64,000 bases of DNA from Ascidia mentula (taxonomy: Eukaryota; Chordata; Ascidiacea; Phlebobranchia; Ascidiidae). Shown here in pieces: positions 33,137 through 58,617 of the stretch. Position numbers and translations under genes: made by a program. The DNA lies in contig OX387200.1 of assembly GCA_947561715.1 (NCBI GenBank), positions 5,086,501-5,150,500 on the forward strand, read 5' to 3'. Below the pieces are notes generated by a model. It was not told the DNA's origin. It made no database searches and saw only the letters and a list, made by a program, of their open reading frames with translations. How positions within the stretch are numbered: the stretch's first letter is position 1; each line of letters starts with the position of its first letter.

Positions 33137-36100
33137 ATGGACAAACTGTTTTGCTTCAAAGCAAAGGAAAGAGGTAATATATCATAGCTTACACGACAGA
33201 CATGTTAAAAAAGTAACTAACATGGTTTTGTTATTACAGAGGAACAAAGAGATCTCATTGCAAATGATGTGGAATACAATGCGAAGTTTGAATATGCGGT
33301 ATGATCACCTTCTTATAAACTTGTTAGATTTATTCTTTCTTGTGAAGTTATTTAAAAAAAACACACATTAAATAATTGTATGGCATTAGGTAAACATTCC
33401 ATAGCCTTCCGCCCTGAAAAGCATTTTGTTTCCGAGTAAAATTTGTTTGTACGAATTATAGTAATAAACTCAGTCATCTGAACAGTTCTCAATTAAGCCA
33501 TTGTATTATTGCAGAACAATGAGATCAAGACATCCAGATACACCTGGTATAACTTCCTTATCATTAACTTGTGGGAGCAAATGCACCGTGTTGTGAATAT
33601 ATATTTTATTGTTCTTCTTGTACTTCAGGTAAGTTTTTGTCAGCAAGTGTTATAATTATAATTTGCCCAGAAGTTAATTGCATAACATGCTAGAAATAAA
33701 ATTAATTTATATTTAATTTGTTTTAGTACATACCACAAATTTCTTCATTGAACCCGACCACTACATTGATTCCTATTGTGATCGTACTTGCCATCACAGC
33801 TGTAAAGGATGCTGTTGACGATATTGTAAGTTTTATTCCACTTTATTAGCAAACTGATTATTTTTGGATTCATTCAGCTTTTCGTATCCTAATTTTGGTT
33901 TGTTCCTATTCTTTGCAGAATCGCCACAAAAGCGATCATTCTGTCAATACACGAAAATCAAGAATCCTCAAGGATGGAGAGTAAGAATTTTTTTTTTTAT
34001 TTTTAACTTGTTTTCGTTTATACTACATTAAACAGCCTATGTTTTATATTAATACAGTGATAAATTGCTCAAGGTATTAAAAGTATTTTAGTATTATTGA
34101 AACTTTTATCAAAAGACAAAACCTTTTATTATTTAAACATTTTATACTCAGACTGACCAGAGAACAATGGAAACACATCAATGTTGGGAATGTGATTAAA
34201 CTGCGCAACAATGAACATGTTACAGTAAGTGTTGCTTGCGTTAGTGCTTGTTGAACACATTCAAAACCCCCATTGCATCCCACTGTTCTGCAGCTTCCTG
34301 TGATGGCTGCGTATTTGTCATTTTTCCTATTAATCTTTTTTCATGACCGAGTGGACATTTTCTGCGTATGTTTCTTATGTGTCAAGTTATATTTTATGTT
34401 ATTTCATTATTTTGCACTTACATTAATAGATAATTGTAGACATTTATCTTTGAGCTGTAGTTTCCATGCACCTATGTACAACTTCCCAACTGGTTGTGTT
34501 TTTTCAAATCATTCCAGATTCTCTTCTTTATCATTGATAGTTTTATGGGTTGTACACTTTTCACTCATGTTGTTTCACTCGACAGGCTGACATGCTGCTT
34601 CTTTCATCAAGTGAGGAGAACCACTTGGCTTATGTGGAAACTGCTGAACTTGATGGGTTAGAGTTTTGTGAATAAATATGTTGTACAATTTCCATTAGCT
34701 TGTAATTTGTTTAGTTCTACCTTTTGCTACCTGCAATAAGTATAAAATTTGCAACTAAACTGCCAACTAATGATTTTAACCTTGGGTGTGAAATACAAGT
34801 GAGAGTGTGTATTGTTGCTTTGCAGTGAAACCAACTTGAAAGTGAGACAAGCATTGCCAGATACAGGAGAAATGGAGGAAGATATCCATAAACTCTGTCA
34901 GTTTAACGGTAAGTGTTACACAGTACAGAAATGTGCGTAGGCTTCACAATGTGCCACTCACAGTACAGGAGTCAGGATGTTCGTCTTTTCTAGACATATA
35001 TATTTTTGATGTATCTTGTATCTGGTGGTTGTCCATTGTGTATGTACAATTAGTACTTCATGTAAAACTGCACATAGGTTTTTACCCATTTTCTCTTTTG
35101 GAAAATACAAGTTGTTTTTTGTTAAGTTGTGATTTTCAAAAATCAAATCCGTGGTTGTAAAAAGTGTTTAGTTGGTAAACTATTTTACAGACTGAATACC
35201 ATAACTGCAATTTCGAGTTTGAAAGATTAAGTGACCAAAGCTAGGTTTTCCCCCTAGGAAATTATGGCCTTGGGCAATATAATGCATTTATAGATTACAG
35301 AGAAAACCGACTTGCCTTTAGGGCAATTTCCTGTCACATTTTTAATAACAATTGTTTAAATTGATTGATAAGTGTTTTTTTCTTTATCTTTAAATAAACC
35401 AAAAAAAACTTGAATGTTTCCAAGAAAGGTGACATTGGTATGTCAAGCAAGCACAAATGGGTGACCAAACGTAGACCAGTAGCTCAGCGGCTGTAAAATT
35501 GTCATGAAATATTTATGTCTTTGGTTGTTAAAAGGTATTTTATTATTTCCAGGTGCTGTAAAATGTGAAGCACCAAACAATCACTTGCATAAATTCACTG
35601 GGAACTTGTACTGGAACAACGAAACCTTTCCAATCGACAACCAAAACATTCTACTCCGTGGGTGTATCCTGCGCAACACACAATGGTGTTACGGTCTGGT
35701 TATTTTTGCTGGACCAGAAACGAAACTTATGCAAAACACAGGCATGTGACTACATAATAACAATCAGTGACAAATTGTGTAAATTAAGTATGTTATGTTA
35801 GTGTTTTCAGCACCGTGGACCAGTTTCTTTCTTTCAGATGTATGTTATCAATTTGAATATTTTTATTTATCACTTTTTCTCATAATGTTTGTGTATTTAC
35901 TCCAGATGTTACATAAGCAATTTTAGGCTGTTTATCGATGGCTTTTGCTTGTTAATACATCAAAGGCACTGTCCGCATCTAATTTTCTGCTTGGTTACCA
36001 AGTGTTTGTTGTTTCCAGGCAAGACGATATTGAAGAGGACAAGTATTGAACGATTAATGAACAAACTTGTGTGGCTGGTAAGTACCAGACCAAGTCATTT

Positions 36101-39100
36101 AAACTGTCATCCATATTCATGCCTTGAGCGTTAACTTAATGTGCTTTTGCCACAGCAGTGTGTCACATTCTGCTAAAACAGTCTAAATAAATTTTAGATT
36201 TTTGGTTTCTTGCTGTTGATGGCCATGATCGCAGCGATTGGAAATAGTGTGTGGGAAGCAAATACTGGAGTTGTAAGTGCTTTTGTAACCGAGAAACTTC
36301 ATAAAATGATCCACAGTAAACATCAGTGTCTCGATTCCTGTATGAGTCACTGTTTAAATATTAGCCAGCCTGGTTATGCTTGGTCTGTAATAGCTACATT
36401 GACAAACCTATACAAGCATTTTCAACATTGGCAATAAATTCATCCCCGAAGTTGACCTTGTTAACATTCTGGCTTCTCGACAAATTTTTAGTGAGTTGGT
36501 GATATAGTTTCCCAAAAGTTTGTTTTGTTGCATTGGAATTTTATTAAACATCACAGCTTTTACAAGGCCACCTTGAAACATCCTAAAATAGTACAAATTT
36601 ACAAAAACGTTTCTCTGATGCCATGATAACCTGTCCCTTTTTGTGTGTTATTAAATGTGGACAAAATCACATTTCTAACATATTCTTTACCATCATTGTG
36701 ACCCTAATCTATCAACTTTTAACAATTTGTTCTCACTCTCATGTTGTGCTTTTTAGAACTTTCAGCTTTTCATGCCATGGGAAAGTTACTCAACAAACCC
36801 ACAGATGTCAGGGTTTCTTATGTTCTGGTCGTACATCATCATCCTAAATACTGTTGTGCCCATCTCCTTATATGTGAGGTAACTCATATTGTACCACTTA
36901 GTTTTATATTTCACTTAAACGTAATTTTCGTTGGGCTTCTTGACAGTTGGTCATTTGTAATCTGACCCTGTAACCTATATGTACTTAGTGCTTCCGCCCA
37001 CACTCTGCTAGTCCAAATGACTGACAGTAAAAGCTGCATTTCACAATATGATTGTCTAATGGAGCAAGATCTGTTATTCACTTAAAATCCTCCAAATTTT
37101 ACTGCACATTTTTACATTATTTGTTGTACTGTTGTGATGTTCAATTAATCCATATTATTTGCTTTTTTTTATCTTAACAAATGACATTGAAACCTCACCC
37201 TGATGTCATTGTATCTTTTGTGCTTGCCAATTATTATTACACAGCGTAAATGCTTATCTTATGTGTTATGAAGCCTATCAAAACTTTTATTTAATTTTTT
37301 TATAGTGTTGAGTTTATTCGACTTGGCCAAAGTTTGTTCATTAACTGGGACAGACTCATGTATTACGATAAGAAAAATCTGCCTGCAGTGTCCAGAACAA
37401 CAACTCTCAATGAGGTTGGTATAAACCAAATTGCCATATCATACTTGTACCACATGCCATAAAGTGGTGGGGAGCATTTAATTAATTTATGTACATTAGC
37501 TTAAATTTAGTAACTGTGTTTCCGATTAATGACTGCGCATTGTATATGATAATGTAAAATAGTGGTGGCGTGTCTGTTATGATTTGTATGATGATTTCCT
37601 TATACACGATGCCAGTCAAATCACTTAACATGAACTATTGTTTAAATATAATATCAGTTGCATATTATGCCACAATATAGTTTCCTTACCCATTTAAACC
37701 AGTGCACATTCTCGACAGGAATTGGGCCAAATTGAGTACGTGTTTTCGGATAAAACAGGCACTCTAACACAGAACATTATGGAGTTCAACAAATGTACCA
37801 TAGCAGGTCACAGTTATGGGGAACCAAGGTCTAAGGATGGGAAAATGGTATATCCCGAAGAGGTGCATGGTTCATTTCATTCGATTTCATTCCATTCACA
37901 ATCATGTCCTTGTTGCATTTTCTAAAATATTTGATATCGTACATTTGATTTGGCATGCTCATTGCAGTTAGATTCTCATTTCCATTACAACACATAAGTT
38001 TGGATCAGTTTTCATTCATGAGCATTGTCATAGTTTGTAACCACAGCAAGGCCTTTCTTAGCTACAACTCTTACAAAATTCAAATAGCCGACTTTCTGTC
38101 AAAAAACATTAACGTATTGTTTATTCCACCAACTGATCACATGTCATATGTCCACACTTTGTTAGGTTTATTTTGACAGCAGCGACTGTAACACAATATC
38201 TTACAAAATTGTAATAATCATGTGGTGCTTGCAACTCCTATGATATTTTATTATTTAGTTTATTCACTTGACAAAATTATTTTGTGTTTATGTTGTTAAA
38301 AGTGAATGTATTAGAAAGGGATTAATGTGGAAATCAAACTACTAATGTCATGCCCACAACGTGTCACTGACTGTGGCTTCATGCACGACTGCATTTGTTT
38401 TAAATTCTAACACGCCCTTTGCTTGTTTTAGGAAAATGTGGTTGACCTCACATACAACGACTTTGCTGAGCCCAACTTCGAATTCTACGACAATAAGTTG
38501 GTTGAAGTAATTACATCTGGGGATGATGACTGTGCATTATTTTTCCGCTTACTCGCCATTTGCCATACAGTGATGCCTGACGAGTCACCTGATGGTAAAT
38601 ATCACGGCCCATTGACTAACTTGTTCCACTCTTAACCTTTCCCTTTGTTATTCGATGACCCAAACCCAACCCATGTTACCAAAATGAATCAGATATGGTT
38701 AACTAGGTGCTGTGTTTGTATATCAGTATTTTAATGAACATATTTGCTGAAGACTCTTATCACAGTTCAAAAATAATGTAGTATCAGACAAAAATTTAAA
38801 AGGTTTGGACAGTTAAAATACATTGTCTTAGTATTAACACCATTACAGCACCTTCTTACAATAGACCCAATATCACACTAGCAGTGGATAATTACTCATA
38901 TCTTCCTGTTAACCTTTTTCTTTGGAACTTTTCACAGGAAAACTTGTATACCAAGCCCAATCACCGGATGAAGGTGCCCTTGTGAATGCGGCACGAAACT
39001 TTGGTTTTGTGTTCAAGTCAAGAACGTATGACACAGTCACTGTGCTGGAACAAGGTTAGATTTAAGCATTCAAATTAATGATCGATCTTGTTTCCAAAGT

Positions 39101-42100
39101 GATATTTTGTTTTGTGTTTAATGAATAAAATAAATTTGTTTTGAAATATTCGACATACACTCATAAGTCATGTAAAAGGCATTAAAAGTGAATATTTGCT
39201 TCTGTAAACGCAACGTTAAGCTTTTGTCAAACCATATTTTTTTACCAGACTTCAAAGTTATCATTTCTAAATGTTTAAATATGATTTCAAAATTACTTGT
39301 TTTTCCTTTTCTGTTCAGTACCCACCACAAAAGCTAAATAAATTTATGGTTTAGACTAAAAACGGATTTTGTAAAGTATTTTGTCATGTTAGTTTTCCAA
39401 AACCATGAAGCATAGCAGCAAAACTGCCATTAACCTTACAGCATCTCAATATATTTTTAGGGAAACCTGTAGAATATAAGGTGTTAGCAATCTTGGATTT
39501 TGACAACGTCAGGAAGCGAATGTCAGTGATCGTGCGAGATCCACAAGGTAACAGTGGATTTAAGGAATGTAAGATGTTAAATTTTTAACCAGGGGTGAAT
39601 TTATCTCCAGGGAAAATTTCGTTAATGTGCAAAGGAGCGGATACAGTGATTTATGAGCGATTGAAACAGGACACAAATGTAGAACTCAAGAAAATAACTA
39701 CAGAACATTTGGACGTAAGAATTTATATTTATCAAAACGTTGGATTGGTTGCAGAGTTTTGTTGTAAAATGAACATTATTTTTGCAGGATTTTGCTGGTT
39801 CTGGTTTGCGAACTCTTTGTTTGGCGGTTAAAGATCTGGATGAAGAAGTTTTCAATGGTAAATTATTTGTTTTGATTAGTAATAAATCGTCAAATCATTT
39901 CATTTGTTATTTACATTTTCTAATTGATGTCATTGTAGAACACTAAAAAGTAGGCAAATCCGAGAACTTTTCCAAGTTCAAACCAACAAACAAAATGTGC
40001 CACTTTTGTTTATGCCACTACTGTTTTTTATTAGTTTGGAAACGAGCACATGACGAAGCCAGCACAGCACTAGAAGACCGCGAAGATAAGTTGAACGCAG
40101 TGTATGAGGAGATAGAGCGAGACCTCACACTGATTGGTGCAACTGCCATTGAAGATAAGCTTCAAGTAACTTCTGTTTCTTGTATCAGAAAATCTGTCTT
40201 AAATTTTTTGACTAATTGACGTAATGTCCATCTTTGTGGTGTGTTCAGGGTATTCTGTTTTTGTAATTTTTTAGCAAACAGTTCATGAAAACCTTGCAAA
40301 ACAAACGACTTAGGACTTAATTAAGGAAGTTGTTGTACAGTTTATAGTTGAAAATAAGTATTTTTATGTGTGTTTTTATTGGTCAAATTGAAGGGCCATA
40401 ATAGGTTAGTGCAGTAAAAAACATTGGCGGTGAATTTTACTACATTTGCACTAGGATGGAGTGCCAGAGACAATAGCAAACCTTGCAAAAGCAAACATCA
40501 AGATTTGGGTTTTGACTGGCGACAAACAGGAAACTGCCATCAACATCGGTTACTCCTGTAACATGCTCACGGAAAGCATGAAAAACGTCTTTGTGTTATC
40601 TGGATATGACTTAGAAGAGGTAAACTCATCTAACCGCATTTATAACCAAGTGTCACTTTTGTAAAAATCAGGGGTGGATCCAATAATTTTTTGAAGGGGC
40701 AAAACTAATTATGACGTAATAGCAAAAGACAAAGCATGCTGGTAGAAAAGTAAAAGAAAACTGTTTTATCTGCCACTGCAGCCGATTTTTTTCTGGGGAG
40801 TTGATGACCCCTATTCCTTCCTCCTGAGTCTGTCACTTATAACATGCATTACATTTTTTGTGTGTGTTCTCAAGTATGATTTTATGTTTAGCTTGAAAAG
40901 AGCATTCAGGATGCTTTGGACGATATCGACCAACCGGTAGTGCCGAAAAATGAAAATGTAAACCAGCCAGGTCAAAGGAGTCCAGTAAGCAATCCCCTCA
41001 TAGCTAGATACTTTTTGCCTTAAGTTGCTTTTTAGAAATAGTATTTCTGGCAGAGTGCTTGCACCCCTCTCACTTATTCACCGTTCTGTACAATCAGCAA
41101 CCATATACAATGACTCAAACTTCTTTTTATAAGATTGTTAACACTTCAAAAGTTTCCAACGGACAGGCCGAGATCTACCCCAACCCAGACAATGAACCAG
41201 ACACATACGGCCTGGTGATTGGAGGACACAGTTTAGTAAGTCTGCATTATTGGTCAACGCCACTGATAATATTGTTAATACTCATTTGGAAAACATGCAA
41301 AAGATGCTGGCATTACTTAAATTGAGTATTGCACTAAATATTTTTTTTCAGGTGTATGCGTTAGATGGAAAACTAGAATTAAAGTTTTTGGAACTTGCCT
41401 CGCACTGCTCTGCTGTTATATGTTGTCGAGTCACACCACTCCAAAAAGCCAAGGTAGTTGACCTGGTTAAAAGAAACAAAAATGCGGTGACCCTTGCTAT
41501 TGGCGATGGGGCTAATGATGTGAGCATGATCAAAGGTAAGCCTGTGGAAATGTTCACATAAATACCATTTTGAAAACCTTGATTTGTGCAATTTATGATG
41601 ACCTTGTACATGGTTTATATTTTCAAAACAATAACTCTCGAAATTATGGTTTATGTTCCATTAAGTTTTGCATTAGACAAGTTTTGGATTTTCGGTACCA
41701 TTGTAACTTTACTACACTTTTTGCCTTCAAGTTATTAATGTAGCACTCATACATCACACCACATTCAGGTGCAGCATTAATACTTGACATTTTTTCAGCT
41801 GCTCACATTGGTGTTGGAATCAGCGGAGAAGAAGGCACACAAGCTGTGCTCTCATCTGATTTTGCTCTGGGGCAGTTTAGGTACTTGTACTCTACTGTAT
41901 TGTTTATCATGCTCAGCATGGTAAATACTTTGTTTTTGTTTAGGTATTTGGAGCGATTACTGCTGGTGCATGGCCGGTGGTCTTATGTGCGCATGTGCAA
42001 GTTTTTAGGTTATTTCTTCTACAAGAACTTTGCATTTACCCTGGTGCAGTTTTGGTATGGCATCTTCAACGGTTTCACTGCTCAGGTATAATCTTAAAAC

Positions 42101-45100
42101 ACGAATTAGAAAAGATGTGTATGTTTTCCAATTGTCGAAATCCACTTACTCAAATAACTACCAAACAAATATATATACTTTTTCCTTTGTGAATATCAGG
42201 GCTTTTAGGTGTAACTATTGCCCAGGACATCTGTTAATTGGAAATCTTTAAAAATTTTCTGTATCAGTTGCTGTTACCCACCTGGTTTGTTCATTTGAAA
42301 CAAGTGTTTTATTAGCACGAGTCTGTTTTGTTAAAATGGTTGTGGACAACCTGAATGTAAACATTCTGTTGCTAACGGACTGAATGTAAACTTTTACCCA
42401 GCTAAAAAAGGCCTACATGTTTATGTTCATTTTAGGGACTTCTGCTGTAACTGATATATATTTGAAAGCTGCCTTTTACTCTACAGAGCATACATGAACC
42501 CTGGTTTGTTGCATTATATAATGTTGCCTACACCTCATTCCCAGTGCTCTGTGTCTCATTGTTTAATCAGGTAGTCAGGTCACCATTTGTACCACACCGT
42601 ATGCGTGAAACAGTCATTTTTACTCATCACACTAACCCCGTACCACATCCGTAACCGACGTACTTCTGTTTTCTGTGCTGTCTCCACAAATGTGTTTTGA
42701 AGTTGAGCACCATATGTGTTGGGTGTTTTATGAGTTTCTTTAGAAGTGATATTGGTTGTACAAATTGAAGCAAAATAATTAGGTCAAAACCTATACTTAT
42801 TTTAGGTGAACGATGGCGTATAAATGCTTACTACCCCTTGCTACATGTTTAGAGGTTAAAATAGGATTAGTAGTAAGTAATTCTTACTCCAATTTTCTCT
42901 TGTACACAGTCGACCTATGATGATTGGTTCGTCACACTGTACAATATTGTGTACACGTCAACACCCATTTTTATCCTAGGTCTTCTTGAGCAGGTAACAC
43001 TGCCAAATGCAGTGGCATAATTTTGCAAGGATTGGTGGTAGAATGCCTTGGTGACTGACAGCTTAATGAAATTCTTTTTCCTTGAGGGAATGCAAAACCC
43101 TAAATTGCTTTTTCTGGCATGCAGTGGCATTTGATGAATAATAGGAATGCTCTAGAATATTATTCACAATTGATTTCATTGTAATTTGGTTGTTGTTTGG
43201 TCTGACTGAGAAATGTCAATTGCTGATGTTGTGCGCAAATACTATTTTACTTGACAGACGCAATTAATAACTTGGTGATTTGAGCTTTTGTTTTAATACT
43301 TCATAACTGATGAATATCCGTGAGTAAAAACAATACGGTTTGGTGTTGTAATTTTCTGCATGCTTGCATTTTGTGACAATTTTCTGATTTTGATCCTTTC
43401 TTTGCTTATTTTCATCACATCACTACCTTCATGTAGCTTTGCATGCATTACATAGTTTGTAAAAGTAGCAAGCATACCAATGCCTTTTTTTAAATGTTTT
43501 CTGTTGAAACTTTAGGATTTGGATGATGAGTATTCGATCCGCTATCCAAAACTCTACCTTCCTGGTCAGAAAAATGAGTTGTTTAATATTCCAATATTTC
43601 TGAAAAGGTAATTTGGAATATATTAATGTTTAAAGTTGTATGTTTATTTTTTCAAGCTTTATGTCTGATTAAATTTGCCTGTACACAATTCTTCCACATT
43701 GCTTTGACCGAATTACTAATAATTGGAACTGAAAATTGTACTTTCAACTTGGGTCCGGTTAGTCCAGGGTCGTGAGTTCAAACCTCACCGGGTGCTTGAA
43801 TTCGCAAATCTCGCTCCGACTTGACGCAAAAATTAATATGCCAACATTAATATAATTTTATTTATGACTTCTATGCAGCATCCTTTGGGGCATCATCACC
43901 AGCGTCATCCTGTTTTTTATTCCGTACGGTGCGTATGCTGAAGGATTGGCAGCTTCTGGTCTTGACATGACTGATCGCCAAACTGTATCCACTGTCATTT
44001 CTACTTGTCTCATACTGGTGGTCACTCTACAGGTATAAATAACACCATAATTTGGTCCCCAGTTGTATTTGTGGCTTTTTCATAAATACTATATGTATAT
44101 TTTTTTTTGCATAATTTCATAAATTAGTTTGATTACAAACTGAGAAATGTTGATAATTGTATGAAAATTTTGCCTTCAAGTGCTATGTGCTGCATGCAGT
44201 TGTGTTTCTTTTTGTCCGTTTAACTTCTGTGACCGTATTTTAATATCTATTTCTTTTTAAACATACTAGGTTGCACTTGATACTTCATTTTGGACACCGG
44301 TAAACCACTTCTTCATCTGGGGAAGCATCGTCATTTTCTTCATCTTCACATTTGCCCTGCACAGCGATGGGCTGTACAACCTTCTCACAGACCAATTCCC
44401 ATTTGTTGGTAAGTGCTTATTTTGATGTGTTAGTTCTATTAGCAAATGCTTGCATTGTTAATTTCTGAGACAGCTCAGAACTGTATATGTGTAAAATTAA
44501 CAAAAAAGGTTTTTCTATATTAGTTCAAAAACAAAGAGACAGCTCATTTGTTATTTATTCAAAAAAAGATATTTCACCGAATAATAAGTCATCATCAGTT
44601 TCAGCAAGTTGTTCAATTGGTATCTTGCAATATGGCACATTAAGACAACATGCCAAATACTACAAGATCCAGTGTGTTTTTAAACTGCAACACATTTAAT
44701 ATTGTATACGCATTTCTCTACAGTGATCGTGTTACATTCAAATCACACAATGTTCAAAAAGTTTTTTTGTATTACAAGGTGTTGCAAGCAATGCTTACAG
44801 CTTCTGGTCCACATGGTTCACCTTATTTCTGGTTGTTGCCATGTGTATTCTTCCCATAGTTGCTATCAGGTTTATTCGAAGCCAGATGCGTCCAACATAC
44901 ACTGAAAAGGTACCAGTACTTTGCCTTTTTCTGCACGAGCTAGGGACTTTGTTGGACTTTTTCTTATTAACAAATTCCAAATTAAGTAGTTTCAGAGTAT
45001 GTGATTTACCTTTCGAACACGTTTTAAACAGGCACTTTTGCATAAAAATATATGGCGTTGTCATTTAATAGCACAAAACTGTCTTTTGGCTTTCAGTTTT

Positions 45101-45482
45101 AATTTATATGTCCTTCAGTTATTTCATCTGTGTCATTTGAAGCCATTAACTGTTCGCCTCCTATCAGATTCGAAAACTTCAGATCAAGGAAAAGAAAGAG
45201 GCGAAGTTAAAATCAGGTGTAAGCATTTCGACCCTGGATCGATTCCGCACCAAATTCCACATCAACCGTCGCAATTCCCGCCCGAAATCGGGTTATGCGT
45301 TCTCCCATGAGCGTGGCTTCGGAAATCTCATCACCACTGGGCGAATGAGCATGAGACGACGACAAGGTTCTACCAACGAAAACTCGCCGCAGAAGGTTGT
45401 CGGGGAAAGGCACTCCTCGCAATCCCACAGCAGGGACGAAGGTGTGGTCGTCACAGAGTCTTACAAAGAGCTGCCTGTTTGA
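33137..45482 (+). CDS. ATP8B: P4-ATPase, ATP8B-type phospholipid flippase, copy A
   Basis: Exons: 33137-33173, 33240-33298, 33515-33628, 33727-33825, 33919-33980, 34152-34224, 34586-34656, 34826-34908, 35553-35741, 36019-36077, 36198-36272, 36757-36878, 37306-37414, 37719-37862, 38432-38594, 38938-39054, 39461-39547, 39611-39714, 39788-39857, 40035-40165, 40455-40619, 40892-40984, 41134-41235, 41352-41535, 41799-41880, 41944-42085, 42487-42570 or 42910-42993, 43516-43607, 43879-44032, 44270-44408, 44779-44909, 45168-45482. This gives 1216 codons. Flips phospholipid to the cytosolic leaflet, normally with a CDC50 subunit. Motifs: DGET (A domain), PISLYV (M4), phosphorylated Asp about 395 in [26 protein letters not shown] and [11 protein letters not shown]. 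The C-tail keeps [12 protein letters not shown], the autoinhibitory GYAFS type. Intron 9 (35742-36018) has a GC donor. Closest by memory to ATP8B2 and ATP8B4. Confidence 0.93.
42487..42570 (+). other. Alternative exon version 1 for M6 of ATP8B copy A
   Basis: An 84-nt phase 0-0 exon with acceptor CCTTTTACTCTACAG and donor CAG|GTAGTC. It encodes [17 protein letters not shown] followed by [11 protein letters not shown]. It is collinear with the next 84-nt exon (13 of 28 residues identical), so the two look mutually exclusive. Using both would add a second M6-like segment and break the membrane topology. Confidence 0.8.
42910..42993 (+). other. Alternative exon version 2 for M6 of ATP8B copy A
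   Basis: An 84-nt phase 0-0 exon with acceptor TTTTCTCTTGTACACAG and donor CAG|GTAACA. It encodes [17 protein letters not shown] followed by [11 protein letters not shown]. It is closer to the single M6 exon of copy B (56924-57007, [17 protein letters not shown]) than version 1 is, which suggests version 2 is the ancestral form. Confidence 0.85.
43751..43795 (+). repeat. tRNA-like fragment, possible SINE remnant, in ATP8B copy A
   Basis: GTGAGTTCAAACCTCAC forms a T-arm-like hairpin and fits an RNA polymerase III B box, preceded by GGTTAGTCCAGGGTC. No complete tRNA cloverleaf could be drawn, so I call it a tRNA-derived repeat and not a tRNA gene. Confidence 0.4.
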
Positions 45483-47511
45483 TATCGACAGGGCATAAAG
45501 TACGTGAATTCCCTTGAAATTTTGAGAAAATTCACATAACTTTGCCACGAAAAACGTGAAATTAGGATTTATCTAAGTTAATAATGTTACATTTTAAAGT
45601 AGTGCAACAGCAAATATTACCAATACGTACTAACGAATACGTTGTAAAAAGTGTAATACATACGATTGTGTCATGCCATGCACAACACTTGTATGACGGT
45701 TCCAACTCCTGCCATTTACTATTCAGGAAAGACAAGACCTATTGTGTAGTATAAGTATGTTTACCTACCTCTTGATATGTCGTTCAACTGTGTTGCCTTA
45801 TCACTGAAAAACTATCACAAACATTTACGAAATACGGTTTTCACGCACAGTATGCCTTGACCGTGTAACAAGAATATTTTTATTTGTTAATGTCACTAAA
45901 CGACATTTCTTGACACAATCTTGAGTTGTTTTTATTTTAACGTACTAATAGTATCACGTTATTACTATGCTTCAACTATTACTCTTTCAGAATATTTGTA
46001 TGTATGCTTTGTCCGTGTAACAAGAATATTTTGATTTGTTAATGTCACTAAACGACATTTCTTGACACAATCTTGAGTTGTTTTTATTTTAACGTACTAA
46101 TAGTATCACGTTATCACTATGCTTCAACTATTACTCTTTCAGAATATTTGTATATTAGCACTTTAATTTACGTACTAATCTCTTATTTTACTTCTTGTGT
46201 TTTATCATGTAAATATGTGGCTATTTCTCCGCCAGATGATATATTCTTTCGTGCTTTTACGCCTATCTAGGTCGCCCAACAGCTACAAATTCAAATATTG
46301 TTGTGTTAGCGAAGCAACTAACGGTTTGATGACTTAATTTAACTTCAAAATTGTCGATCGTTGCTTTGATTGCACTACGTCAGGTGCTGACAACAGTATC
46401 CTTGAAAAATACGCCCGATACCAAATTCCTTCTTGTTGAACTAACTCTAAATGACCGCAAAATTCTCATTGTGTGAATCGTAGAAAATACGTTGAGATAA
46501 GTTACATAAGTTTTACTGTTGTGTGATTATCGGTGTTGCCCTGTACGTGGTTGGGACACAATTCCACGTTAAAACATCAACTTTTATAAGCAGTTGATGT
46601 CCCATGGTTTCATGGGTTGGGTTGGGTGTTTACTCTCATAGGTCCGTCATGCTCTTCAAACAAACACGTGTTTGCATTTATGTGTAAGGCTTGTTTGCGC
46701 TATGTGGCAGGGCATTGGTACTGTTTAATTTTTAACCTTTCTTCCTTGGGCTCCATACATGTATCGGTGATTGAGACATAGTTGTGAGAGGTACTGGTTA
46801 TAAACTTGTCATCGGCTTTCAGGGTGTTTTCGTCATGCGTTTAGAACTAAAAGATTTAGTTTTCAAGTTGCGACTCATAAGGTGATATATACAGCAACAT
46901 GTGAATTCGGTTTTAATGGTAACGCGCTCCGTTATGGTGTTACAATAATTCATTGAATGTTTTTCTCTTTTCACGAACACTCGCCCTCACCCGAAGTTTG
47001 CTTAAGTTTCTGTTGCAAGTTGGATTTTTTTGTTTACGTTGGGGTCGTTAGTGCGTAGCCTATGCCTATAACTTCCTGTATTCTGTGAAGTTGTGTTCCC
47101 CTGCGTTGCTTTTATAGACGAGCCCTAAACTGTATAGATTACCAGCTTGATGCAATTGCACTTTTTGTGCACTGTCGGTTCTGCTCTTGCACTAAACTGT
47201 TCGCCTTTTTCACGTTACCGCTGTTTTTTATCAATTATCGCCATGCAAATGGCTGTTTAATAAATGCTTTTCATCCATAAGTTACTTCACGAGGACAAAA
47301 GTTGTTAGACAGGCAAGGGTAGATGGTAAGAGTGGATATGTAAGTGGCTGAGGGTTAAGAACATTCAGTGGAAGAATAGGTGATGTAATAAATAGATTAA
47401 AATAAGTGGAACGCATGTTAAGTACAGAATTTTTTCCTGTTTTGTTTGTAATCCCGTTCATATATTTTCTCTTATTAGGCAATATTGCATTACATGTAGG
47501 TTTCTGGTAAA
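45483..47511 (+). other. 3' UTR of ATP8B copy A and spacer to copy B
   Basis: The only canonical poly(A) signal I see is AATAAA at 47259-47264, which would give a 3' UTR of about 1.8 kb. A 152-bp tandem duplication sits at 45851-46152. A splice-acceptor-like TTTTCTCTTATTAG ends at 47478, 33 bases before the copy B ATG, so the copy B mRNA may be trans-spliced or have a 5' UTR intron. No protein-coding segment was recognised. Confidence 0.55.
45851..46152. repeat. 152-bp direct tandem duplication
   Basis: Two copies, 45851-46002 and 46003-46152, differ at only a few positions near the start and middle (for example CCTTGACC against CTTTGTCC). High identity implies a recent duplication. It lies in the presumed 3' UTR of ATP8B copy A. 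Confidence 0.85.
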
Positions 47512-50500
47512 ATGGGAGCATGTTTAAGCAGAGCTCCCCCTGGTAAGTTGTCGTATAATTCCCGAAAAACCTCGTTAAATAACGTGATTTTTTTAGAGCA
47601 ACAACGTGACCTAGTAGCAAACAACGTTGATTACAATTCTCAGTTTCGTTATTGCGTAAGTACAATTTCCTGTGAGCTTGTTCGTTCAAAGACAAACATT
47701 GCTTTGAAGCTACAAAGTTGTGTAACGGACTGTATGCTGATTACAAACGATTTTTTTCACTTCAAATATATGACGTAGAAAAAGCATCAACAGTATTTCG
47801 CAACTCAAGAAAAACTAACAGCTGTTATTGTTAGGCAGCTTTTAGGCAGAATTGGAGTTTAACTAAAATCTTTTGTTGGCAGGACAATGAAATCAAAACA
47901 TCGCACTACACGGCGTACAACTTTATATTCCTAAACCTCTTTGAACAGTTTCATCGCGTTGTAAATATTTATTTTGTTGTTCTTTTGTTACTGCAAGTAA
48001 GTGAATGTGACTAGATTTAGTTTTTTTTAGTAAATATTATAACTTCTATTTTCAGTTTATTCCATATATCACGTCGTTAAACCCAATTACAACGCTTATT
48101 CCGATACTGATCGTTCTTTCAATCACCGCAATCAAAGATGCTGTCGACGACGTGGTAAGAGAACTTTTGTGAAACCTATGGCCTTATGATCCAAGAATGA
48201 CTATGCAAATGAAAACCGCTGTCGGTATACAGCAGGGTCGTTTTGTATGATAAAAATTTAGCCCAAACAATTTTCCCTGTACCTATCCTAGCACTCATTT
48301 TAACCATGCAAGTGTTTGCCCCTGTCATGACATCAGCGAAACAATTCCCATGTTGTATTTCCTGCCTTTTCAAAATGATTAACATGACGTAACAGTGATA
48401 ATGCTTTTGTACACAGCACAGGCACAAAAGTGACAAAGAAGTTAACAACAGGAAATCACTTAAGGTTCAATCCGATAAGTAAGTGAGGTAGTTGTACATG
48501 TAGCTGTCTTGGAGTACGTAGACTTTATCATGTGATCAATACATTTTGAGTAAATATTTGACCCAACAACGCTTAAAGGTCGGTACGAAGCGATCGGCTA
48601 AACAGGCTCTGCCAAGAAATCATTAACCGACATGGGCAAAAACTACTTTCTCCAGGCTGCTATATTTAGCAAATATATAAGAATCGCATTTTACGTAATG
48701 AGCTAATAGCCGTTATTTTCACAGATTGGTGAAAGTGAAATGGATGGATCTCGAAGTTGGTGACGTAGTGAAGATTAACAACAACCAACACATCCCAGTA
48801 TTATTGCTTGATACATGCAGTTGCTCTCAGTAACTTAACAAATTTATTGCAGGCTGATTTGCTTTTGCTGTCAAGTAGCGAGGAACACAACGTTGTTTAC
48901 ATTGAAACTGCTGACCTTGACGGGTAAGCAATCAATTGTTGTTTTGTCATAACGGCGTGCGTAATGCATTGTGTTGGTAAATATAGCGAGACGAACCTGA
49001 AAGTGAGGCAAGCTCTACCTGTTACTGGTGATTTGGGCGACGACATCCAGCTCCTTAATTCATTCAATGGTAATTTATATGACTTATAGGCTATAATTGG
49101 TAGTAATTCTTGTTTTTGTCATGTAATGTGCTATAACAGTGTCTCTTAATCGGGTGAATGATTTTTTTTCGGTGGTGAATAAAAAACGTTGCACAGGAAG
49201 AGGTCGCACGATTTCTCATGAAATAAAAGGCAGTTTTTGATATTGAACGAAATGCCACAAACCTTAGTAAGGGGCAAAAAACGTTAAAAACACTGCGTGT
49301 CGTTCAGCTTTTGCCTTTGCTTAATATACCGCTTATCTAAAACTGCTTATTCCTATCCAGGCAAAGTTCTGTGCGAGGCACCCAACAATCTATTGCACAA
49401 ATTCACCGGTAACTTGGAGTGGAAAGGCGATACGACATCCATTGACAACGAGAAGATTTTACTGAGAGGTTGCAATCTCAGGAACACGTCCTGGTGCTTC
49501 GGTGTCGTTATTTTTGCCGGACCCGACACTAAACTCATGCAGAATTCCGGTGAGCTAATATTTTCAGTATGTACCACACGCATAAACTTGATTTAATAAA
49601 CATCACATTTTTGTGGTGAAAAACGATAATAATAACCTTTGCAATACATGTTTGAGTGGAAAATAAAATAAACGTTAACAGTATTATTATTGATTTCTGT
49701 TTTTTTATATCATTCTACAGGCCGAAGAATGTTGAAAAGAACACGCATCGAACGGTTTATGAACACACTAGTTTGGGGGGTAAGACTACTTGATCACCTT
49801 TCTTCAAACCATATAGTGTAAAACGCAGGTAGATTTATTGCGATTATTCAATTGTTTTTAGATTTTTCTAACTCTCATCTTATTCTCGACTTTCGCTGCC
49901 ATCTGGAACAGCGTCTGGGAACGGGTCGAAGGTTACGTAAGTTGTGACCGATAGTCGGTGTTACCTCGAATTTACGCCTATTTGCTCTGGACAGAAATTT
50001 CAGCTCTACCTACCATGGGAGAGTTACGCACCCAACCCGAACATGTCGGGATTCTTGATGTTCTGGTCCAATCTAATTCTACTCAACACGCTTGTGCCTA
50101 TATCTCTATACGTGAGGTTGGTGTTTTATGTAAAGCAGTTTCAACAGCATGACAAATCGTCGGTATTTTTAACTTCAGTATGGAGTTCATTCGACTTGGC
50201 CAGAGCTTCTTCATTGACTGGGATAGGCAGCTTTATTACGCGAAGAAAAATCTTCCAGCTGTTGCTCGAACTACAACACTTAACGAAGTAGGCAAAAATA
50301 TTACCCTTTCATAAACGTCCTTATGTGTTCCATATGCTCTCGCATGACGCGGCGCAATAGCACCAATGCCTGTAGGCCCTTACTTGGCGAACACTGCCAT
50401 CGTATATTAATCATCAGGTTCACTGGCATCGCAGCCAAGGATGGTAGTCAACCTATTAAATCCTAAATACCCTTTTGAATTTCATGCCAAACGTTGGTGC

Positions 50501-53500
50501 AAAAGTGTATATTGTTCATTCAAGAGAGATGGATATACTCGCGTGGTTGCATTATTATGTTTTTTTAAAGGAACTCGGTCAAGTGAGTTACATATTTTCG
50601 GACAAAACTGGCACCCTGACGCAGAACGTGATGAAGTTCGACAAATGCTCAATTGGCGGCAAAAGATATGGTGATTCATCTGAGGTACTAAACATGTCAT
50701 CTCTTGCTAAACAAACCTAAGTTGTTGGTGGAAGCTATATGGCTATTTTAGGATTTTGTGAACTAACGCTATCAAAGTTATTTAATGCTTTAAAGACTAC
50801 AACCATCCAGTAAGTAGATGCAAAACTTCCCATGTGAATACGTTGATCGATTCCCCATACTTCCGCTGTACTAACGGTGCCGACGTTCAAGCAAATTTCA
50901 CCAGTGGATGTCGGCTAGCTTCCATTATTTATTGTAGTTACAGAAAAATATCCTGGCACAAAATCGTACAAACAATTTCCTCACATAAGATTTCCAATAC
51001 TTGTACAGGAAGCGGTTCCAGTCGATCTAACAAACAATAAATATGCGGAACGATCGTTCAAATTCTACGACCAACGTCTCGTCGATGACATCAACAGTGG
51101 TGACATCACTTGCGAGAAGTTTTTACGGCTCTTAGCCCTGTGTCATACGGTTATGATCGAACAAACCGACAACGGTGAGCAAATAGGACCCTAAGTTTTT
51201 TGTGTAGTAAAGCAGTTGGGTTGAAAAGACTTGACAATCTATATTGGGGCCGAAGGCTGAAACGTATTGCTTTTATTCACATTGTGCACATAAGCTGTGT
51301 TTTTTGTGAATTTTCTAACGTCATTTAGTGTGTAAATATATCATGCTCGTTTTAGCTGTCTTAATTTATTTCAGACACACTTATCTACCGCGCCCAGTCG
51401 CCCGACGAGGCTGCGTTGGTTTCTGCTGCAAGAAATTTCGGATTTGTTTTCAAGTCGAGAACGTTCGATACCATAACTGTTATCGAACAAGGTAACACTA
51501 TTTCCTGTGTTTTAGGAAGAACGAATCAATAAATCATGTTTTCTGGTGATGCTGATAGTATACGACAAACGGTTGTGATGTGGTGTTGTGTCTTTAGGGG
51601 AAACGAAACATTTCGAATCTTTACTAAAAGATAATAAAGATACTTAATGTTTTTTTGATAAATAGGTTCCAATGTTTTTTGAAAGAAATTGCGAAACCAA
51701 CGTAACATTATAGCCCCAAACACTCAACAAAGTAATTGTAAGCCAATATTGAATAATTTTCACAAATATTTGGCATAAAATTGTATCATACTCAGCCTGC
51801 ATGGGATTTAATTCCAGATTTTCCATCATAACACAGATATGTTGTAACGCATTCCCCACTTCCTTTCAGACAAGCCAGTGACGTACAAAGTATTGGCAGT
51901 TCTGGAATTCAACAATGTTAGGAAGAGAATGTCAGTGATCGTACGCGACCAAAATGGTACGAAACAGTCACTTTCAATTTATTGTTTTCCGCCCAGCACC
52001 TTACACCTTGCATGTTTTTTTTTTTGTTTTTTTTTTATTATTATTGCAACAACTACAACAACGACAGAGAAAAGAGAAACAAAACACGAGCTCAAGAAAC
52101 ATACGCTAATACACACATCAACATTAAATTACAAAGTATTCCATTTCATTTTAAATTCATTCACTTTATTAGTTCTTAAAGCAGTTTTTTTTTCTGCTGC
52201 TCTAACTTGCTGTACTTGCCGTCGAAACATAGTAAAACAGGGTTGCACTTTGGCCACTTTACATTTGTAAATACAAAATCTTGCTATTAATAAAATTAAA
52301 TTGATTAGTTTTTCCCGGTTCGTACTTCCATTTTCTGTACCAAAAAGTTTGAGTTGATCGGTGATAACAATTTTTTCCATTAATTTGGCATCTAGCCAAT
52401 TACACCTTGCATGTTGCTGTGTTGTCCACAAGGCGTATAGCACACAACGACACCAACACGACAAGGAATATACGAAAATTAGTATTGACCGATATTTGTG
52501 GGGTTTACAAAAACAAACCTTTTAGATGATGTTATAATGCCATCTTTTTTACCACACCGGGGTTCGAACCGGTGTTATCCTGGTCACGACTACCGATGAG
52601 TTGCAGCTACAAACCATTAGTCATTCATATAGCATTAATGGGGAAGGTTTTTACGAAAGTCATTTTGCGCAAGAATATTTATGCGTTGTTTTAGTCTTCA
52701 AACATCCACCTTATTGTTATTTTGTCAACACGCACCCCAGATAAACGGATTTTAAATTTCGAGATCTTGATTTTCTGGAAAGGTCTCTCACCATAATATT
52801 TTGCGAATTGCACATCTATGCTGTGTTTTTTTTTATCGTTTTGGTTGGCAAAGTAGTGTTCCTAATGTATACAAGTTATAAACAAATGCTTTGTGGTGTT
52901 TGACTTTCTCAGGCAAATTGTTACTTCTGTGCAAGGGAGCTGATTCGGTAATTTACGAACGACTTGCCACCGAGACTGAAACGAAAGTAAAATTGAAAAC
53001 CAGCAAACATCTGAACGTGAGTACAACGATAAACTTCTGCGGTTTTAAACCCCTGTAGTTCTCAACCTTTTTGTACTTCCGGTCAAGTTTAAAAAAACTT
53101 TTACGAGCCGGTGAATTAGTATTATTTAAAAATGTGATCAAATTACCATGTTAACAAAAATTTTATATTGAAAAATTATGCACTTCGCGCCAAATCCATT
53201 TAATATGAAAATGACATTTATTGGGAAGTGGTAAAAAAACCCGGCGGTTCAAAAACACTGCTTTAATCGTAACTTAAAAGTTTCTTAACTTGTTACTGTC
53301 AGAGTTTCGCGGGCGAAGGATTGCGGACGCTTTGTCTGGCGATGAAGGAGTTGAACGAGGAGGACTTTAAGGTTTGGAACGAGGCGTATCAGGTGGCGCG
53401 AACCTCCCTGGAGGACAGAGAAGACAAACTGGACGCAGTTTACGAAGAAATCGAGAGAGACATGGAATTGCTCGGTGCAACCGCCATTGAGGATAAACTT

Positions 53501-56500
53501 CAGGTTTGTTTATTATAATGGAACACTTTTTGTGTCTTTTAGTTCACATGGTTGTTGTGCATTATCTACGACTATGCATAATGCATAGAACACACGTGAC
53601 AATGATTTTATACCAAATAACAGTAACCGGTTCCCAAACTCTTAAAATTCACCGTACTTGCCACGTAGCGTAGATCTATTCAGAGAGATCTTGTTCCAAA
53701 TTCTGACTTTTAAAGTGAAATAATACCGAGTAGGATTTCAGGTAATTTACAGTCTTCAGTAGAATAAGACAGACTCTTTGCTTCCATTGTGAAACTCTTA
53801 CGCGACAACTGTAACGGTGCATCAGGACGCACAGATTTGGAAACCACTATATACAAACTTTGTGTTAAAACATTACTTTTTAGGATGGAGTCCCGGAGAC
53901 GATAGCGAACTTAAAGAGGGCCAATATCAAGATTTGGGTTTTGACTGGCGATAAACAAGAAACCGCGATCAACATCGGTTACTCGTGTAACATGCTCAAC
54001 GACAGCATGAAGAGGATATTCACAATAACGGGATACAGTGCAGAGGAGGTAGATACAAGAAAAAAATTTCATTGTTGTACTTCTAAAACAAAATGGATGC
54101 GAATACCATAAAAACAAACAATTTGTTTCGATACTTTATTATAGACATGTGGTGGTTGTAAGGTAATTCAAACTTATATTATCCTAAATACCATTTTCAT
54201 GCCCTTCTTTGAAGGACGACAGGCGCAGTTTTACTGATCAGTAACACAAAGAGAGCCAAAAAGATTATCTTGCTGTATCATAATATTTCTATTATGTTTA
54301 GTTTCAGAAAAACCGTTCTTCTTGCGATAAAATCTTCGTTAATTTACATGCAAATAGGACGAAATGATATCAACACTGAAATTTGTTTTTTACCAGGTGG
54401 AAGATGAAATCGACAAAGCACTCCAAGCTATTGACGACCAATGGAAACAAGGAGAGGGCAATGTAAATAATGCCTTTCTGGATGACAATCAACTAGTAAG
54501 CGACAGCGGTGCACGAATGCCGTTGTTCAGAAATGATCTCAAATCGAATGAAATCAATTCGTCTAATTTGCGTGACCATCAACGGTTTTAATATTTCAAT
54601 TAATTTTTCTAGCACAATTGCATGTTGGAACTGGAGTGATTGTAGTACGTTCAACATCGTATACCGTCCTCCCTTTGAGCTTAATTGCGTTTTATTGTCG
54701 TACTGAAACATTTAACTCAGTACAAACACGACTTAACATTTTTATGACGTTATAAATCCATTCAATTGCCTGTTGAAATAGAACTCCAATAACTCTCGAA
54801 AATATTTCGAGCAAAATCAAAAACCATTTTGATATTATTGTTTTATTTGGATGGTACGAAACAGTCACTTTTAATTCATATTATTGTTTTATTTGGGTAT
54901 TGACCTGCTTTTATGCTCTGCAAAAGAAATTATGATAATTCACCAAAGACCAAAAGTGGATGTGTCGCATTTCAATCATGACCGCCCAAGCATGGTTATG
55001 TTCATTGATTTGTTCTAATTGCATGTCAATACACGTTTTTAGCAGCCGATTATACCACAGAACAACAAAGTGGGAACGGAACGACCGCCAACAAGAAGTC
55101 AACGCGGAAACCATCAGAGCTTTGGCCTTGTTATCAATGGCCACAGTCTTGTAAGTCTTTGACATGTAGAATAGGAAAAAAATAAGATCTGTTTGGAATC
55201 AATTTAATCTACTACTACCGAACGACCAACGACAGGGGTGTCGAAACTCATTGAGTGCGGTTCGTCTTATTTGCCAAAATAGATTTTTTGTGCATCGTGC
55301 AACACTACATTACAACAGTAGTGCAATCGATATTATCATTTGTATTTTATTTCCCATCACCGCGATTTTTAAGTCACGTTAGGACGTAATAGCATTCACA
55401 ACTTGTTAAACCTCTAGATCAGTGTTTCTTAACCTTTTTTGGATCACGAACCCCTACAACATTCTTCAAAAAGCTATGGACCCCTTTGCAAGGAACACAT
55501 TGCAAATGTCGAAATTAGGTTTTAATCAAAGGCGGTTTTGCAATTGCTCAAACTATTCGAGGTGCATGTTAGGCTGCCGTTGTGGCCTGATCAAGTGGAA
55601 ACGTGACCAGCGAAACCTTATGGACAGAGGAAAATACGTGGATTTTGGGGATAATTGTATTTCGTTTCATGCACCCCTTAATGTATCTTCTCGGACCTCT
55701 TGGGGGTTCATGGACCCCAGGTTAAGAACCCCTGCTCTAGATGGTTGCTTTGAAAAATTATTTTCCATTCATAATGCAAGGGTAGAACTATCAAGCAAGC
55801 TAGCATGGCGCGGACCACAAAAACAGAGCATCCGGGCCGCCAGATTTGGCACCTCTGTCTTATGATATTTGCCTAAACTCTTATTGTGTGGATGCAGCTA
55901 TTTGCATAAGCTACGATATTTGTACATCGTTTTTGAAATAAAGCCTTAATCAACATAAATCAGACACGACTACGTTTGCAATTGTACGACGCGTGAAACG
56001 GAATGAATTAGTATCGCAAGCGGATGAATACTTTTTTCATCCCCGATTTTTATTCTTGCCGTAACGCATGTCCAATTGGTACAGGTTTATGCATTGGACA
56101 AAGATCTCCAGTTGCAGTTTCTTGATCTTGCTTCGCGATGCTCCGCAGTGATTTGCTGCAGGGCCACGCCGTTACAGAAAGCAAAGGTTGTTGAACTTGT
56201 GAAAGAAAACAAGAAAGCAATCACCCTTGCTATTGGGGACGGCGCCAATGACGTCAGCATGATTAAAGGTTCGTCACAAATATATACACTGGGAGGTGGT
56301 AAAATTGGCTTAAAAGTGTCCAAACTTCAAAGCATATGATTTCTATTACAGCGGCGCATATCGGGGTTGGAATAAGTGGGGAAGAAGGTACTCAGGCGGT
56401 GCTCTCATCCGATTTCTCGTTTGGTCAGTTCCGGTAAGTTTTTCGGGCGTTGTCATCTTTGTGCTTGTCCTGGATGTGTGAAAAACATTTGGACTTCATT

Positions 56501-58617
56501 GTATCGGAGATAATTTAATTTACACCGTTAAATAACGCCTAAAAAGGAGTCATTTTCATACATGTAAGTTATGTATTGTCTTTTAAATGCTGTGTGTTTT
56601 GCTTTAGGTTTCTGGAGCGGCTGCTTTTGGTGCACGGGAGATGGTCGTACATGAGGATGGCAAAGTTCCTCGGCTACTTTTTCTACAAAAACTTCGCCTT
56701 TACCCTGGTTCACTTTTGGTACGGTTTCTTCAATGGCTTCACAGGCCAGGTATAATCTTAAAAAATTGCCTGTTAAAATCATTGCCAAACACAATAAACC
56801 TTGATTGTTCAACGAAAAGAGGGCTATTTGTGGTATGAAAAGAGAGTCTTCGCGAAATTTTAATCGTGTTGCTTTTTCTTGATTTCCGAAATATTTCCAT
56901 TAAATTATTTTGTATTTTCGTAGTCGGCCTACGATGATTGGTTCGTAGCATGTTACAACACTATATATACGGCAACCCCGGTCCTTGTGCTTGCCATCAT
57001 TGATCAGGTTGGTCACAACTTTAGGACCATGATTTGGAATAACTATGTTGTATTACGATAGAGAAATCTACTATAGGTATATTACTAAAGAAAACTTGCG
57101 TATTCGTTTGTCGTTCGATTTCAAACTTTGGGCAAGATTCGTTTGTACCACTATAGGAGGTGTAGGGTAATTCCAATGGTTTTGACGAAATCCCTTCTTA
57201 TGTTTTACAGGACGTGGACGAACAAACGTGCATTGAGCTGCCTGAACTCTACACGCCGGGACAACGGAACGAGCTTTTTAATAAAAAGATTCTGTTCGCT
57301 AGGTATTAGCCTGAAATTATTCTTACTAACTTCTATAGTTGTATACTAATTTGGTATCAGACACTGGCAGGCAAATATATGTAAAATAAACTCCATGGAC
57401 AAAGAAACCTGCTTATGCCCACTGCTCTTTCAAGTGTGCTGATGCGGGCACAAAAAAACGCACTGTTGTAAACATATATTTTTGTGATGACGTTGAATAT
57501 AGTATAGGGCCTATAAAAATAAAAAACCCATCATTCAGGCATTAAAATATGTACTTTCAAAAGCTCTCAGCACTCTCATCTACATGCGTTGGGCTAAATA
57601 TTTTACTTCAATTTTCTACAGTTTGTTTCGTGGATTTCTCACAAGCTTGGTTCTATTTTTCATCCCATACGGAGCGTTAATGGACACAGGTGGCAGCTTT
57701 GGTCTGGGTATGAATGACCAGCAGACCATGGCCACCACCATCGGAACATTCACAATCTTCGTCGTCACTTTACAGGTCAGAAAATATTGCCGAGTTTACG
57801 ATGTTTGTTGTATATTACAGTTTTCGATCAATATTTTGGTATTTTTTGTCACGAGTGAACAATAATCCCAAGGCAAAATGTATTTGGCAACAAAATGTCG
57901 TTACAGATTGCACTGGACACATCCTACTGGACTGGATTAAACCACTTCTTCACTTGGGGCAGCATCGCTGTCGTGTTTCCCTTTACCTTTGCCTTCTGCA
58001 GTGACGGATTGTACAATCTTATCACGTCTCAATTTCCTTTTGTTGGTAAAATATCTGAAATGATTTCGGCAGAATTTGGCCTCATTTCATGTTGGGTTGA
58101 ACATTTAAGACAATTTGGTCCTGTCAATAGCGTGTGTTCTGTTTGTCATATTGAACGAATTCCATGCTCACTTTACAGTGAATCCTGTAATCAGAATATT
58201 TTCTGTAATATTCGCTTTTGTGGTTAATCATTATAATAGAAATGCGTGCCACTACAAAGTGTTACCATCTACAGGTTCGGCGGTCAATGCGTATTTGCAA
58301 CCGACGGTGTGGTTCGCCCTTGTGTTGACCTGTGCCATCTGCCTTCTCCCGGTTGTTTTCATGCGCTATGTGCGTTCCTTGCTGTGGCCCAGCACCGTAG
58401 ACACAGTAAGGTGTATTCTGGCTTTTTGCTTTCGCCTGTGATTGGCTTGGCTTTTTGGCGCACCAGCGCATCAATATGTAAGAATTTCTTCACATTTTGC
58501 TTTACACAGATTATCAGCGAACAGGAAAAACTAAACCGCGTAAAACGGCAAAATTCGAAAGGCTCAAGTTATGGTACAACATCAACACCGTTGACAAACA
58601 AGACGACCGGTTTATGA
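47512..58617 (+). CDS. ATP8B: P4-ATPase, ATP8B-type phospholipid flippase, copy B
   Basis: Exons: 47512-47542, 47597-47655, 47883-47996, 48056-48154, 48417-48478, 48725-48797, 48853-48923, 48987-49069, 49361-49549, 49721-49779, 49862-49936, 49995-50116, 50179-50287, 50571-50684, 51009-51174, 51375-51491, 51870-51956, 52913-53016, 53303-53503, 53884-54048, 54397-54495, 55061-55150, 56085-56268, 56352-56433, 56608-56749, 56924-57007, 57211-57302, 57622-57775, 57907-58045, 58275-58405, 58510-58617. Total 1134 codons. Nearly all exon lengths and phases match copy A, so the pair arose by tandem duplication. All core motifs are present: [19 protein letters not shown] with Asp about 393, [28 protein letters not shown]. 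Differences: it starts [10 protein letters not shown] (predicted myristoylation), has one M6 exon, one 201-nt exon where A has two, and a short tail without GYAFS. A poly(A) signal lies at 59080-59085. Confidence 0.92.
52551..52610 (-). repeat. tRNA-derived SINE-like fragment in intron 17 of ATP8B copy B
   Basis: On the minus strand, ACACCGGTTCGAACCCCGGTGT forms a perfect T-arm-like stem-loop with a B box GGTTCGAACC. Upstream, AACTCATCGGTAGT resembles a D arm and A box. The anticodon arm is not convincing, so this is a tRNA-like repeat rather than a tRNA gene. Confidence 0.5.
53052..53260. mobile_element. Degraded hAT-like MITE in intron 18 of ATP8B copy B
   Basis: The left end CCTGTAGTTCTCAACC and the right end GGTTCAAAAACACTG are imperfect inverted repeats of the hAT kind. 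Flanks TTTTAAAC and CTTTAATC may be a decayed 8-bp duplication. No coding capacity. Older than the elements at 29603 and 55420, judging by its poor ends. Confidence 0.45.
55233..55857. mobile_element. Outer hAT-like MITE, interrupted by a second element, in intron 22 of ATP8B copy B
   Basis: The left end CAGGGGTGTCGAAACTC and the right end GATTTGGCACCTCTG are inverted repeats of the hAT kind. Without the insert and its duplication, the element is about 295 bp. No convincing 8-bp target duplication remains at its outer borders. It is the older member of the nested pair. Confidence 0.6.
55420..55734. mobile_element. Inner hAT-like MITE with perfect 8-bp target duplication
   Basis: Left end CAGTGTTTCTTAACCT, right end AGGTTAAGAACCCCTG, flanked on both sides by CTCTAGAT (55412-55419 and 55735-55742). 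The 315-bp unit has no complete transposase. The open frame across it (55422-55865) is chance reading through repeat sequence. The intact duplication implies a fairly recent insertion. Confidence 0.85.

Follow-up and report, generated by a model that had tools for sequence, protein, structure and literature searches.

Two tandem M6 exons in an ATP8B-type lipid flippase gene, probably spliced as alternatives

Can a lipid flippase exchange one of its transport helices by splicing? The question is raised by a 64-kb window, the whole stretch of DNA that was analysed, from the genome (196 Mb, 79 contigs) of what is probably a sea squirt. The window holds two ATP8B-type P4-ATPase genes, head to tail, here called copy A and copy B, and an earlier note on this DNA had reported that copy A carries two 84-nt exons of phase 0-0 between the exon for M5 and the next common exon, where copy B has a single version of M6. 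The coordinates and translations given for both exons proved exact, and their arrangement was confirmed by spliced alignment and by the exon borders, as was the single M6 version of copy B (Table 1). The two exons are designated E1 and E2. The explanation that the analysis favours, with fair confidence, is that the M6 exon of copy A was duplicated in tandem and that its copies are probably spliced as alternatives, each transcript taking E1 or E2, which would yield two pumps that differ at 15 of the 28 positions spanning M6 and its immediate surroundings.

Table 1. Positions in the window of the two ATP8B genes and of the exons and introns around M6
Feature	Positions	Strand	Remarks
ATP8B copy A	33230-45482 (about 33.2-45.5 kb)		End read by eye
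Common upstream exon, M5 of copy A (RYLERLLL...FTAQ)	41944..42085	+	Ends in phase 0; spliced alignment to human ATP8B1, PF16212
Exon E1, divergent M6 version	42487..42570	+	84 nt, phase 0-0; PF16212 match, coding constraint, splice scores
Intron separating E1 and E2	42571..42909	+	339 nt; without U12-type branch motif
Exon E2, canonical-like M6 version	42910..42993	+	84 nt, phase 0-0; PF16212 match; picked by spliced alignment
Intron 3' of E2	42994..43515	+	522 nt; three GCATG
Common downstream exon, copy A	43516..43607	+	Spliced alignment to human ATP8B1
ATP8B copy B	47587-58402 (about 47.6 to at least 58.4 kb)
Sole M6 exon of copy B	56924-57007	+	Comparison exon

Copy A was found to belong to the ATP8B (class IC) type of P4-ATPases. 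The DKTGT phosphorylation motif and GDGAND are present in its open stretches 37698-37922 and 41196-41558, and the best relative in the PDB is ATP8B1, both for the C-terminal domain, which in the E2 form gave E about 7e-85, and for the rest of the protein. Copies A and B are tandem duplicates with many exon lengths and intron phases in common; their DNA identity is 48 to 75% over 16 exon pairs of equal length (E1 excluded). The gene models comprise 54 exons and are incomplete: at the 5' end, in the P-domain loop and in the C-terminal tail, exons are missing or uncertain. About 370 nt 3' of the copy A stop codon, which was read by eye, a 152-nt unit is repeated in two tandem copies with 97% matches (45850-46153). 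In the genome, two matches to Glycosyl hydrolase 6 (GH6) were recorded (L023 and L024), scoring 32.0 and 27.8 bits where the Pfam cut-off is 27; GH6 in an animal genome presumably marks tunicates, and these matches fit a tunicate.

Each of the two exons is bordered by AG on its 5' side and GT on its 3' side and is translated without stops. The spliced alignment to human ATP8B1 placed E2 in phase 0-0 and skipped E1, a choice to be expected because E2 is more like human ATP8B1; phase 0-0 is assigned to E1 from the same borders. Equal in length and phase, each exon can join the common exons in frame. In a Pfam-A scan E1 alone matched positions 60-87 of PF16212 (PhoLip_ATPase_C) with E=8e-6 and E2 alone the same positions with E=3.8e-7, the M6 exon of copy B reaching E=6.9e-7 against this model, so that the assignment of both exons to M6 of P4-ATPases in the earlier note is upheld. 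The exons are neighbouring homologues (13 of 28 residues identical, tblastn E=1.1e-7) and were the only strong duplicate pair when the 54 modelled exons were searched against both genes; the next match within a gene had E=0.027 and lay in a non-coding frame. Among the 25 best matches of exons to non-exon sequence (E up to 0.17), no remnant of E1 was seen in the copy B introns flanking the M6 exon, and the best of the 25, on the minus strand with E=0.002, looks like chance, which shows the E-values of this exon search to be lenient. Since each exon alone matches positions 60-87 of the model and the pair is the sole strong cross-exon match, a chance resemblance is excluded.

The domain model also bears on how the exons would be combined. 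The C-terminal domain scored 264.7 bits against PF16212 in the E1 form and 269.5 bits in the E2 form, each as a single stretch; with both exons it scored 281.7 bits and with neither 201.8 bits, in each case split into two stretches. It might be supposed that E1 and E2 do not exclude each other, both being present in some transcripts and adding a membrane span, or that one of them is an added cassette. Joint inclusion of two 84-nt exons of phase 0-0 would preserve the frame and gives the highest summed Pfam score, but the match is then broken in two, and a protein with both exons would have eleven spans with M7-M10 turned round, which makes this explanation quite improbable.

A different possibility is that E2 is constitutive and E1 a decaying or unused duplicate. 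Base identity is 51% between E1 and E2, 68% between E2 and the copy B exon (15 of 28 residues) and 50% between E1 and the copy B exon (13 of 28 residues), so that E2 is the nearer of the two to copy B; it is also slightly nearer to the Pfam model and to human ATP8B1, with 16 of the 28 M6 residues identical against 15 for E1 (14 for copy B). E1 is unlike E2, copy B and the human protein alike at 10 positions, two of which (Y980 and D982) are otherwise invariant, and given these private differences E1 could be weakly constrained. Against decay, E1 is open, its splice scores are near the median of the introns of both genes, and it retains eight of the ten invariant residues, those on which E2, copy B and human ATP8B1 all agree.

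The differences between E1 and E2 fall 15, 7 and 19 on the first, second and third codon positions. When 41 random changes were placed on E2, 6.4 +/- 1.7 identical residues were expected, compared with the 13 observed, and copies that were open with at least 13 identities made up a fraction of 5e-5 of the 20000 simulated. Further simulations placed 0, 8, 14 or 20 silent changes first on the E2 branch, and in each setting none of 4000 simulated copies was at once open, as similar as E1 and equal to it in invariant residues. Across these settings the probability of 13 identities by themselves rose from 0.00025 to 0.09, so that with 20 silent changes identity on its own is not significant (P=0.09). 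These simulations, made within one genome and with silent changes but no amino-acid changes on the E2 branch, indicate coding constraint on both exons, with the protein identity of E1 above neutral expectation in most settings. Judged from these patterns, E1 is very probably a selected coding exon, and its being a decaying or unused duplicate is unlikely.

The scored matches of E1 across the genome number at least three, namely its own locus, E2 and the M6 exon of copy B. When the genome was searched with Pfam, five loci gave 22 stretches; C67 carries two of these loci (copies A and B), C72 another two and C1 the fifth. In copy A the M6 model positions are covered by two separate Pfam stretches. 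The locus on C1 also has two stretches that overlap on the model (2-96 and 34-118), yet a single M6 was seen there by eye. A coarse scan of about 2 kb per locus found one M6 candidate each at C1 and at the first C72 locus, and one candidate plus a stop-containing stretch at the second C72 locus; the candidates scored 29-33 and stretches outside M6 equally high (30-33), so this comparison is a weak control. A further locus, on C71, looks like a chance match, and no relatives were confirmed in a scan of viral_contigs. That E1 arose by gene conversion or by an assembly error, instead of exon duplication, is very improbable. The flanks of E1 and E2 show no residual duplication, as such an origin would have it, and little else speaks for it; E1 is neither an allele nor a collapsed repeat of E2, their DNA being 51% identical, and no further donor locus appeared among the genome matches scored.

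The flanks themselves were compared directly. An identical 11-mer, CTACATGTTTA, occurs at 42413-42423, where it starts 74 nt upstream of E1, and at 42841-42851, where it starts 69 nt upstream of E2, but as a shared flank element it is within chance (P=0.118). The remaining five flank comparisons between E1 and E2 gave P values of 0.18 to 0.95, with no homology beyond shuffles.

Trees for the age of the duplication were built from 28 columns containing E1, E2 and copy B together with human ATP8B1 and ATP8A1, and four of the possible topologies were compared. The topology uniting E1 and E2 was the worst of the four, with p-AU 0.13 (0.41, 0.26 and 0.77 for the others); its bootstrap share of 0.045 was marked as excluded, while the KH, SH and AU tests do not reject it. 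In the M6 alignment, no columns support E1 and E2 together against copy B and human. A duplication before the split of the A and B genes, followed by loss in B, fits the trees at least as well as a recent duplication would, and fast change of E1 would produce the same picture; 28 columns are too few for the duplication to be dated from these trees. A more far-reaching proposal, that the pair is old, predating the A/B split and perhaps the tunicate radiation, that B lost E1, and that a regulated choice gives the flippase, according to tissue or stage, one or the other of two lipid preferences or of two regulatory states, is speculative and, on present data, rather doubtful.

One-or-the-other splicing requires usable splice sites at both exons. 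The score matrices were derived from 41 of the 53 introns (19 of 27 in copy A and 22 of 26 in copy B), leaving out the two introns around E2 in copy A and those beside uncertain joins. Relative to the 41 introns, the donor and acceptor of E1 are at the 46th and 49th percentiles, those of E2 at the 73rd and 20th, and the acceptor of the next common exon (43516) is at the 22nd. Scores equal to or above those of E1 are reached by 3.8% of the GT and 3.9% of the AG in the window, and the corresponding values for E2 are 1.3% and 12.9%. The splice sites described earlier as good therefore appear plausible but ordinary, from the 20th to the 73rd percentile, and are not striking.

Several ways in which joint use of E1 and E2 might be prevented can be considered. 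Neighbouring splice sites block each other only within a few tens of bases, and steric exclusion is unlikely because the 339-nt spacer is far above this distance. Nonsense-mediated decay cannot enforce the choice, since the reading frame is preserved whether both exons are included or neither. U12 branch motifs were not seen, and whole-intron duplexes among the three introns were equal to those of 100 dinucleotide shuffles each, a result that leaves room for short local pairing. Exclusion by intron base-pairing, by a U12/U2 mismatch or by a short spacer was thus not found here, and none of them is required of a mutually exclusive pair. As decay, steric spacing, U12 sites and whole-intron pairing do not account for exclusion, a regulated choice between E1 and E2 by RNA-binding proteins is the most likely mechanism.

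A hint as to such regulators may be contained in the intron following E2, where GCATG occurs at 43117, 43358 and 43441, the last two within TGCATG (43357 and 43440); neither motif was found in the two preceding introns. The density is three in 522 nt, compared with five in the 9116 nt that the 41 other introns comprise, and the whole window has 67 GCATG on the plus strand and 72 on the minus strand. GCATG/TGCATG, the RBFOX motif, was one among several motifs counted, and was singled out post hoc; its position after E2 is a weak hint of possible RBFOX-type control.

The consequences of the exchange for the pump can be considered residue by residue, in the numbering of ATP8B1. Both exons encode W983, F984, V985, L987, Y988, N989, Y992, T993, S994 and P996, which is the W-F-V-x-L-Y-N-x-x-Y-T-S-x-P core recognised in the earlier note; also as noted there, they diverge elsewhere, namely in the lead-in at 979-982, at 986, 990, 991 and 995, and over 997-1004, where seven of eight residues differ. 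E1 has one acidic residue, against three in E2, copy B and the human protein, with D982 replaced by P in the exoplasmic lead-in and the acidic residue 1004 replaced by N at the cytosolic end. Mean hydropathy is similar among the M6 versions (1.59 to 1.73), and the differences between E1 and E2 show no bias towards a helix face (P=0.69).

What M6 does in P4-ATPases has been learnt from point mutations and structures. For ATP8B1, a water in the transport site is described that has the TM6 backbone carbonyls of N989 and T993 beside it (PMC10657443). The conserved TM6 Asn is reported to help bind the lipid phosphate in ATP8A1 and to be crucial in ATP8A2, where its mutation blocks substrate-stimulated dephosphorylation (PMC12424579). 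Since Asn989 and Thr993 are kept in both exons, it is likelier that the swap tunes rate, packing or regulation than that it replaces the substrate class. Both pump versions would be expected to work, as these two residues and the whole core are identical.

Taken together, mutually exclusive splicing of E1 and E2 is the best reading of the locus and is well supported by inference from its sequence features. Copy A would then offer a single pump with a choice of two full M6 helices, a ready-made natural experiment on M6, and would carry regulation by exon swap beyond ion channels and ion pumps to lipid flippases. Among the open-licence papers searched by their titles and abstract openings, no case of exclusive or alternative splicing of the M6 type in a P4-ATPase was found. 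If the more doubtful proposal of an old, regulated M6 switch were true, this would be, within the literature searched, the first case of a P4-ATPase whose transport helix is switched by splicing.

The pattern of E1 and E2 is that of tandem duplicated exon substitution, already familiar from channels and transporters and described in PMC9741552. CACNA1C, SLC25A3 and SLC39A14 are named as genes with mutually exclusive exons in PMC5740500; in this class, as in ATP8B copy A, neighbouring homologous exons serve as alternatives, with transcript proof according to the papers, whereas in copy A the splicing is inferred and the gene encodes a lipid flippase. Closer in protein family is the plasma membrane Ca2+-ATPase (PMCA), for which tandem exon duplication substitution is reported in vertebrates, arthropods and nematodes (PMC9741552). 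Like ATP8B copy A, it is a P-type ATPase with tandem duplicated exons, but it is a calcium pump of another P-type subfamily. Human ATP8B1 (PDB 7vgh, 8ox4, 8ox7 and 7py4) has the same M6 core and transport-site residues as copy A; its solved chains contain one M6 sequence, whereas copy A has two M6 exons.
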